From the NCBI GenBank assembly GCA_951802425.1, contig OX637801.1, positions 62,001 to 126,000 on the forward strand: DNA of 64,000 nucleotides. Reading direction: 5' to 3'. A program made the translations under genes and the position numbers. Origin of the DNA: Clavaria fumosa. Lineage: Eukaryota; Basidiomycota; Agaricomycetes; Agaricales; Clavariaceae. The notes below the pieces were generated by a model. The model saw only the letters and a list, made by a program, of their open reading frames with translations. It made no database searches and had not been told where the DNA came from. This document shows, one piece after another, positions 30,016 to 31,669 of the stretch. Position 1 is the first letter of the stretch. Each line of letters opens with the position of its first letter.

Positions 30016-31669
30016 ATGCCAAGAACGAAACAATCGGCATCCAGGTCAACTGGTGCTCCATGTGTGAGAGTGACCCTTCACCCGTCTGCCATCAAACAAA
30101 ATGCGCAGCCTATCGCTCAACCGATTGGAATTAGGGTGAGTCCTCGACTCTTCTGTCGATTTGATCGAGCTGATCAAGGGACACAGACAGGTGACAGAGC
30201 CCCAAATGATGAAGTCAGACTACTTAACTCCATCTAATATAGTACTGACCTTTTGCAGTGGTGCTGCAGCTGCGGCGATGGCGGAAATCTCTTGGACTGC
30301 GATTTTTGTGAGCAAGCCGTGTGCAGCAAATGCCTCGATCTTTCTGGAGGCTCCAAGCTCATCAAAGAGCCCGACGTCAATTTTTTTTGCATGGGCTGTC
30401 ATTTAGGCTCAGAGAATCGAGCTGAGCCCTTCTATGTAAGTACTGATCTTTATCAACACAAATTTATTGACATAGAATGTTGAATTACAGCCTCTCTACC
30501 GCAACGGCGAGCCCATCAAAAGTGTCAATGGGCATATCAAGCCCACGACACTAAGGGGCAATTACGCACGGCAAAACACAAACTCGTTGGCCATCGTCAA
30601 CATTCGACTGTGCACGATCCCAACCCAAGGCGATCCATACATTTCCGTCGCCAACACCTTGGCCGGCTGGTTCGCCAGCATATCTGAAAGAAGGATGTTA
30701 TTTACCAAAGAGGTAGTCTTGGATATTGATGCGGCGAATCCAAGATCATTGGCCAAGCATCAGAGAGTTCTCAAGGATATCATCAAAAGCTTTCAACAGT
30801 GAGTCCGTTTTATTACGATTGAACGCAGCTGATTGCTCCAAACAGATTTGGAGTCCGGAGGCTCGTCGTATTCCTGTTTACCCACGCCAATCCCAAGAAT
30901 GGTGACCTCCATTGTGCTAATAACTCAGGAATCCAAGTTGAAAGCGTAAGCTCATCCATACCATCAAATGGTCGCTTACTGATGTAGTCTACCTTTTCAA
31001 AAGTTTCTGGCTCAAATTTTTGGGCAAGATCTCCTTCAGTTTGCACAGGAAGTACATTCACTTCTTGTCCTCGAGGTTTGTGGCGGAGTTTGGGAGAACG
31101 CGGCGTCGTGCAAAGCAGTGACGGATTTTGCTCAAAGGTATGTCTTGGCCCCACCCCTGCTTCCAATGCTGATGATGCCCAGTGCATATTTCAATCATGT
31201 CATTGGCTTTGGCCAAGCCAATTTCTTTCCCCATCTAGCTATTCCATTCCTCACAAAACTTATCATCAAAAATTTCATCGAATGTTTCTTGATCCTCCGA
31301 ATTCTGCCAGATCTTCTCAAGGAGGAGGAGGGTCTTGGTGCCCACACCTCCATCCTTCTTTTGTCTCACAGATTCGCCTTGGAATACATATGGGTTCACC
31401 ACCAACTCCGCCCATTCGGTGATGCCGTCGCCCTCCAGTGCCCGAAGTGTTACGCAATTCGGACCCTCACATTCAAGCTACTGGACAGCAAATCGGGCAG
31501 TTACCAGGCAAGCTGTCCTTGTGGTTGGGCCGACAAGAAACCCTCTGGCTTGGGTGACGCAACCTTGCCAAAGGGCCCGACGGGATGGGCCACTCGCCTG
31601 TTGTACGGAACTCCGGCCATTGTGGATGGTATATGGAAGTTGCCACGTTTGATGTATAATATTGTCTGA
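30016..31669 (+). CDS. H3-tail-like N-terminus plus ADD/PHD finger protein, 441 aa
   Basis: Six exons by consensus splice sites: 30016-30135, 30259-30435, 30491-30798, 30846-30945, 31004-31137 and 31183-31669. The acceptor at 31003 is the least certain. Residues 2-12, [12 protein letters not shown], mirror the histone H3 tail (R2, T3, K4, Q5, A7, S10, T11, G12 kept; K9 is R). Exon 2 is a PHD-like finger with C-x2-C-x8-C-x2-C-x4-C-x2-C...C-x2-C spacing; GNLLDCDFC resembles the ADD finger of ATRX. The middle region has VVFLFTHANPKNGDLH and LLVLEVCGGVWEN, spaced like the His and Cys of caspase-fold proteins. The C-terminus has a CPKC...CPCGW zinc-ribbon-like site. Function is inferred: a chromatin-directed accessory factor of the element. 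Confidence 0.75.

Follow-up and report, generated by a model that had tools for sequence, protein, structure and literature searches.

A histone H3 tail mimic joined to a predicted PHD-type finger in Kyakuja-type DNA transposons of Clavaria fumosa

Histone mimicry is known from viruses and a few host proteins, and the described cases resemble the Clavaria fumosa gene analyzed here in different respects. In BAZ2B, a histone-mimicking linker lowers H3 binding by the protein's own PHD finger about 9-fold (PMC5663869). BAZ2B as described there unites a basic, H3-like segment with a PHD that reads H3, as the element-encoded protein is predicted to do; its segment competes with H3 for the PHD, a behavior that we propose for the element protein by analogy. 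BAZ2B is, however, a host protein and not a mobile one, and its mimic is no true H3 N-terminus but an internal, lysine-rich linker that follows the PHD. The H3-like N-terminus of PAF15 is read by the UHRF1 PHD (PMC7060239), and the VRT motif of DPPA3 competes with the ART of H3 on the UHRF1 finger and counters maintenance methylation (PMC11187062). These proteins share with ours a short H3-like ART/VRT motif for a PHD that reads (in our case, is predicted to read) unmodified H3, and a connection to the control of DNA methylation. According to the sections of the two reports drawn on here, both act on the finger of another protein and reproduce only the first few H3 residues, whereas the H3 match of the element protein extends as far as G12 and has a finger joined to it. 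Viral histone mimics, such as the hepatitis delta antigen, are likewise parasite proteins that imitate a histone segment, but those treated in the cited portion of the source are short internal motifs and no full N-terminus joined to a reader (PMC6972770). Finally, the VANC proteins of VANDAL transposons are accessory proteins that counter host silencing (EMBO Rep 2023, PMC10398659); they differ in that they bind DNA, and histone mimicry is not stated in the excerpted text of that paper.

The gene occupies positions 30016-31669 (+) of the window, by which we mean the whole 64,000-nucleotide stretch of DNA under analysis. With splice sites inferred from GT..AG boundaries and conservation, it has six exons, all on the forward strand, and a predicted product of 441 residues. 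Exon 1 (30016..30135, 40 codons) encodes the H3-like tail; the mimic proper covers 30016..30054, and matches to H3 R17 and L20 extend up to 30078. Intron 1 (30136..30258, GT..AG) separates it from exon 2 (30259..30435), which encodes a PHD/ADD-like zinc finger. Exon 3 (30491..30798) specifies an alpha/beta region, exon 4 (30846..30945) a strand ending in a conserved His (..VVFLFTH..), exon 5 (31004..31137) a strand ending in Cys (..VLEVCGG..), and exon 6 (31183..31669, including the stop codon) a C-terminal Cys-rich, zinc-ribbon-like stretch. In-frame stops precede the ATG at 30016, with no Met between them and the ATG. These stops, together with conservation of the tail, led us to reject a protein start downstream of 30016. 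The intron that the initial annotation called conserved is found again in most copies, with both its donor and its AG acceptor, but not in all: no donor pattern was found in the four copies of the T subfamily (L069-L072), and L023 and L059 have no AG at the expected place.

A GTCACGTGA box lies 56 bases before the ATG (29960..29968, +). Of 66 copies, 51 have a GTCACGTGA/TCATGTGAC box in the 150 bp before the ATG, compared with 0.5% in shuffled sequence; it may be a promoter box that the element's genes share. We note that the box is also seen at 29880-29888, upstream of the tail gene, and that TCATGTGAC-like strings stand near 32207 and 32234, before the KDZ gene.

The carrier is a complete Kyakuja-type (KDZ) transposon of 16,776 bp (22179..38954, no strand assigned), which ends in CACATAG...CTATGTG and is flanked by the target-site duplication GTAGAGG on the left (22172..22178) and on the right (38955..38961), likewise unstranded. 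The KDZ transposase gene sits 3' of the tail gene. It contains a CxC2 cysteine cluster (32552..33292, +; Pfam PF18803, E 1.9e-24) and part of the KDZ transposase domain (33819..34403, +; PF18758, E 8.5e-29), a combination that identifies the element as KDZ. The 7-bp duplication and the CA..TG ends are those of Kyakuja elements, for which a 7-bp duplication and 5'-CA..TG-3' termini are described (PMC12730594). The outer parts of the inverted arms (22179..22632, +, and 38503..38954, -) are 93.6% identical across 454 aligned columns. Further inward, 43-bp tandem repeats form inverted arrays inside both element ends (22304-25377 and 36008-38829). Two Laccaria Kyakuja families are described as having no TIRs, a statement made for these families and not for all Kyakuja (PMC12730594). 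The window's element does have inverted-repeat ends and is therefore regarded as a Kyakuja variant. The TET/JBP-carrying Kyakuja described in the same source (PMC12730594) agree with it in their KDZ transposase, 7-bp duplication, and CA..TG ends, and many of its sister elements in this genome have TET/JBP. The window's copy itself departs from the Laccaria elements, as far as that text describes them, in its long inverted arms and in having no TET/JBP match between its ends (C8:84179 to C8:100954). A Kyakuja element with TET/JBP is instead present at the sister locus L076. Long stretches of the window's element are shared with copies elsewhere in the genome. It also carries a further multi-exon gene (25599-28000, -; open frames 25599..27078), for which three tested frames gave no Pfam match.

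The window tail matches H3 at R2, T3, K4, Q5, A7, S10, T11, and G12, as the initial annotation had listed, and at R17 and L20 besides; the segment quoted there as residues 1-12 is in fact 13 letters long, counting the Met. Searching the 48.8-Mb genome with the finger exon returns 87 matches (88 when another member is the query). Upstream DNA was read for 67 of these, and a tail was scored as H3-like if at least 6 of its 13 residues were identical to H3. Such a tail stands directly before the finger in 66 of the 67 copies, the exception being L068, which is truncated. The H3 N-terminal sequence is thus found at the true protein start and kept throughout the family, and homologs without it, which had been named as a refutation, come down to one incomplete copy. 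In the proposed check on the RTKQ segment, R2 is kept in 61, T3 in 58, K4 in 56, and Q5 in all 66 tails. Further along, S10 is kept in 55 (Thr in 9), T11 in 46 (Ser in 20), A7 in 49 (Pro in 13), G12 in 62, and R17 in 61. Position 4 is Arg in six copies and Thr, Met, or His in four; at position 1, 24 of the 66 have Pro. The reported replacement of K9 is seen in most copies, with Arg in 48 and Thr in 4 against Lys in 14; with K9 kept in only 14 of 66, we rejected mimicry of H3K9 as the main point. Four of the 66 tails have a stop at R2 of the CGA to TGA type, and those copies are therefore decaying.

A DNA pattern for the tail start, ATGSCNMGNAYNAARCA, which encodes Met, Ala/Pro, Arg/Ser-type, Thr/Ile/Met, Lys, and Gln/His-type residues, has 59 matches in the 48.8 Mb and its reversed control has one, so a chance origin of the likeness was rejected. 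In 51 of the 59 cases, a finger follows on the same strand at a distance of less than 600 bp. Two of the eight matches that have no finger are host H3 genes; the other six (C1:1768609, C1:2085182, C1:2261459, C6:3183231, C7:3143177, and C10:2242540, in genome coordinates) may include further H3 genes. Protein database searches yielded three relatives of the full protein and four of the tail alignment, while the C-terminal alignment recovered the same first three. An H3-like tail is present in P0003, P0005, P0006, P0007, and P0008, and P0002 and P0004 cover later parts only, so that the apparent conservation of the tail beyond this genome is a matter of five fragments (P0003, P0005-P0008). A search of viral contigs with the finger alignment found no relative.

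Host enzymes might treat the tail as a substrate, by methylation of K4, phosphorylation of T3, or methylation of R2 or R17, with the mark switching the protein or recruiting host factors. Retention of R2, T3, K4, Q5, and R17 fits such a role, but six copies have Arg in place of K4 in a tail that otherwise looks intact, and K9 is mostly lost; we regard this explanation as improbable.

Comparison of codons indicates that the tail is retained for its amino acids. Among 11 representatives, tail codons 2-13 give pS 0.764 and pN 0.235, and the next eight codons give pS 0.768 and pN 0.439. In seven representatives, pN/pS is 0.277 for finger codons 2-25 and 0.381 for the tail. These are pairwise values from related sequences with saturated synonymous sites, which show constraint and do not amount to a formal test. 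The low ratios imply that tail and finger are both under protein-level constraint, and by this measure the tail's protein sequence is preserved to about the same degree as the finger's. We rejected a recent conversion by host H3 genes, as the representatives differ at synonymous sites almost everywhere. The two host H3 genes that were read (L078 and L079) both have an intron directly after STGG. Strong similarity between element and H3 stops at the end of this host exon 1, beyond which only R17, L20, and in part A15 agree. The extent of the mimic thus coincides with host exon 1, which suggests exon capture; the tail probably derives from the first exon of a host H3 gene, and capture is the simplest account of the sequences compared.

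Such an origin is plausible in itself, and it allows for an N-terminus without any histone-related role, inherited with the captured exon and kept for translation or stability, for example. We think this quite unlikely. The amino acids persist despite nearly saturated synonymous change among the tail copies, in representatives whose fingers are 36-71% identical to that of the window. Furthermore, the residues kept are those that H3 readers use, and they stand beside a finger of that very class.

A profile of 14 fingers finds 13 PDB sequences below E 0.01, from CHD4, ATRX, PHF21A, AIRE, SP140, and NSD3. The E values are 4.8e-7 for CHD4, 9.9e-7 for ATRX, 1.8e-5 for PHF21A, and 2.8e-4 for AIRE, and the weaker matches extend to zinc proteins without a relationship to these, for example RPC10 (E 0.012). 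The window finger has eight zinc ligands in PHD spacing (Cx2C x8 Cx2C x4 Cx2C .. Cx2C). It shares with the ATRX ADD, the CHD4 and PHF21A/BHC80 PHDs, and AIRE PHD1 the zinc-ligand pattern, a GG-x-L-x-x-C-D-x-C core, and an Asp in the R2-binding place, and its fifth zinc ligand is Cys instead of His, as in ATRX. It differs from this group in staying below the Pfam PHD cut-off and in having no second ADD module. With E values of 1 or lower accepted, PF00628 gives weak matches, under its cut-off, to 12 of the 14 fingers, with a best E of 7.8e-4; the window finger scores 16.0 bits against a curated cut-off of 24, and the full-length protein has no Pfam PHD match at E 1. The likeness to ATRX seen in the initial annotation is therefore genuine, its ADD being found at E about 1e-6, but it extends to the PHD-like half only. 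The GATA-like zinc finger of an ADD domain was not found before the finger, exon 1 having a single Cys, and the label ADD is too strong because the second zinc module that defines it is missing.

The ADD domain of ATRX reads H3 with unmodified K4. The same is described for PHF21A/BHC80, AIRE PHD1, CHD4 PHD1 and PHD2, and TRIM24 (PMC3471955). By its profile the finger belongs with these PHD-type readers, and we predict that it would bind H3 unmodified at K4. Directly behind the third zinc Cys, 56 of 63 fingers have Asp, six have Asn, and one has Phe. In our own alignment this Asp corresponds to Asp1950 of BAZ2B, which binds H3R2 and whose mutation causes a 100-fold loss (PMC5663869). The candidate acidic residue for holding K4, in the G-x-G-G loop, is Asp, Asn, or Glu among the fingers. 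In one group (NPKK/TPKK; L040, L041, L045, L051, L057, and L064-L067), finger residue 10 is Asp in five of six copies with K4 and Asn in all three with T4 or M4. This is possibly a single covariation event, and none was seen elsewhere, giving once at most. AlphaFold2 modeling of tail, intron 1, and finger reached a pLDDT of 29.4, from an alignment of only two sequences. The central observation of the initial annotation, an H3 tail mimic beside a finger in a mobile element, is thus borne out by conservation, by the finger profile, and by the KDZ element around it.

Joining an H3 tail to a finger in a transposon protein suggests a fake histone that manages or evades host gene silencing. We interpret the gene as accessory to KDZ/Kyakuja DNA transposons. 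The encoded protein would begin with the H3 tail copy, followed by a disordered-looking tether of about 20-35 residues and the PHD-type finger, and would continue with an alpha/beta domain bearing the conserved His and Cys and a zinc-ribbon-like C-terminal stretch. Methionine aminopeptidase cleaves off Met before Ala or Pro. Its action here would expose the free amine of Ala1 or Pro1, the group that fingers of this kind grip. The tail could then compete with nucleosomal H3 for its own finger, within one molecule as autoinhibition or between molecules as head-to-tail assembly. A protein gated in this manner would release or load a partner activity only where H3K4 is unmodified, the state to be expected of silenced transposon chromatin.

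We favor this self-gating or self-assembly, which the sequences make quite conceivable, at slightly less than an even chance. In its favor, the best-kept tail residues (R2, K4, and Q5) belong to the part that PHD fingers read, and K9 is not kept; 66 of 67 copies keep an H3-like tail directly before the finger, both tail and finger are constrained, and Asp is present in 56 of 63 fingers. Against it, the acidic residue that would hold K4 is not constant and position 4 is Arg, Thr, Met, or His in 10 of 66 tails. Covariation occurs at most once and the Pfam PHD cut-off is unreached. In addition, S10, T11, G12, and R17 are kept outside the usual PHD contact, and self-gating leaves them unexplained.

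The genomic surroundings of the family bear both on this explanation and on its principal competitor. Within 20 kb, at least 62 of the 87 finger loci have a KDZ match, where 10.0 are expected at random; the KDZ counts draw on the 185 matches listed and are lower bounds. TET/JBP matches occur within the same distance of 41 of 87 loci (4.5 expected), with the random expectation computed from uniform positions on contigs C1-C13. At least 33 loci are near both and at least 70 near either. Viewed from the other side, a finger lies no more than 20 kb from 43 of the 66 TET/JBP matches. The basis for naming these TET/JBP is a Pfam Tet_JBP match (E 9.4e-17) in L076, where the dioxygenase open frame (3531-4106, -) lies between two copies of the tail gene. 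Base changes were counted in 16 gene copies, namely the 18 closest minus L023 and L025, which have large rearrangements. CpG transitions number 152 of 2304 and other C/G transitions 15 of 10512 (positions times copies), an approximately 46-fold difference. This strong CpG decay is an indirect, apparent footprint of cytosine methylation.

The main rival of self-gating is a decoy for host readers. The exposed tail would occupy proteins that read the unmodified H3 N-terminus (UHRF1-, DNMT3-, or CHD4-type), or H3K4 writers and erasers, and so weaken silencing of the element, while the finger and C-terminal domain serve another purpose, for instance holding the protein on chromatin. PAF15 (PMC7060239) and DPPA3 (PMC11187062) provide mammalian precedents, as those reports present them. 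The signs of cytosine methylation in the elements and the proximity of TET/JBP to so many finger loci agree with a decoy, and a general H3 mimic fits better with the retention of S10-T11-G12 and R17, which lie past the residues that a PHD contacts. However, many tails differ from H3 at positions 8 and 9, Pro occupies position 1 in 24 of 66, and a decoy needs no linkage to a finger of the same specificity. We judge it rather unlikely, if still a serious competitor. As for self-gating, a protein of that kind probably helps the element either to escape from silenced chromatin or to find its targets there, acting alongside the TET/JBP enzyme of many sister elements.

The remainder of the protein offers fewer clues. 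In the C-terminal region, a His follows a hydrophobic strand in five of five aligned members, and a Cys follows the next hydrophobic strand in four of five, these being all four tail-bearing members. The order of strands and helices, in our own reading, resembles clan CD. The domain could then be a caspase-like (clan CD) cysteine protease that would clip H3 tails, with its own tail as bait, pseudosubstrate, or self-cleavage site. Beyond the His and Cys pattern, the region's profile gave no usable match in PDB, Pfam, or NCBIfam, with no protease and no clan CD homology detected there. In NCBIfam, one member weakly matches a metallo-beta-lactamase core (E 0.0081), either by chance or as a hint in another direction, and AlphaFold2 modeled part of the region at a pLDDT of only 40.3 (alignment of three sequences). 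We consider a protease very improbable.

Second, diverged copies of the tail gene exist in 13 places. The one in L076 (5780-7336, -) lies on the opposite strand and has neither the H3 tail nor the conserved Cys. The strict tail pattern is absent within 2.5 kb upstream, on their own strand, of all 13, among which the L076 copy is the only one that was read. A regulatory partnership between the tail-less copy and its counterpart is possible.

Our results go beyond the initial annotation in the size of the family, the origin in a host exon 1, the TET/JBP link, and the CpG decay. Taken as a whole, they fit a scheme in which capture of H3 exon 1 next to a reader created a self-gated mimic that blinds or hijacks host H3-tail readers at silenced elements. 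It would form the histone arm of an anti-silencing kit, with the TET/JBP dioxygenase of sister elements as the DNA arm. We advance this combined scheme tentatively and hold it to be unlikely in all its parts together. No report of a transposon-encoded H3 tail mimic was found in the text searches of an open library, a scope that leaves outside the 2014 paper in which KDZ elements were reportedly defined (Iyer et al., on KDZ transposons and TET/JBP). The main text of PMC12730594 does not contain the words "PHD," "zinc finger," "protease," or "accessory." Histone mimicry has been described before, as have anti-silencing proteins of transposons; a conserved transposon gene that combines the two appears to be new.

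If correct, histone mimicry would be a conserved, multi-copy trait of DNA transposons, linked to an H3 reader within one protein and to TET/JBP enzymes by position in the genome. The family would also serve as a natural series of H3 tail variants, each with its own finger, and hence as a resource for studying reader specificity. It makes directly testable by what route transposons of methylated fungal genomes avoid being silenced, and whether histones are acted on in addition to DNA.
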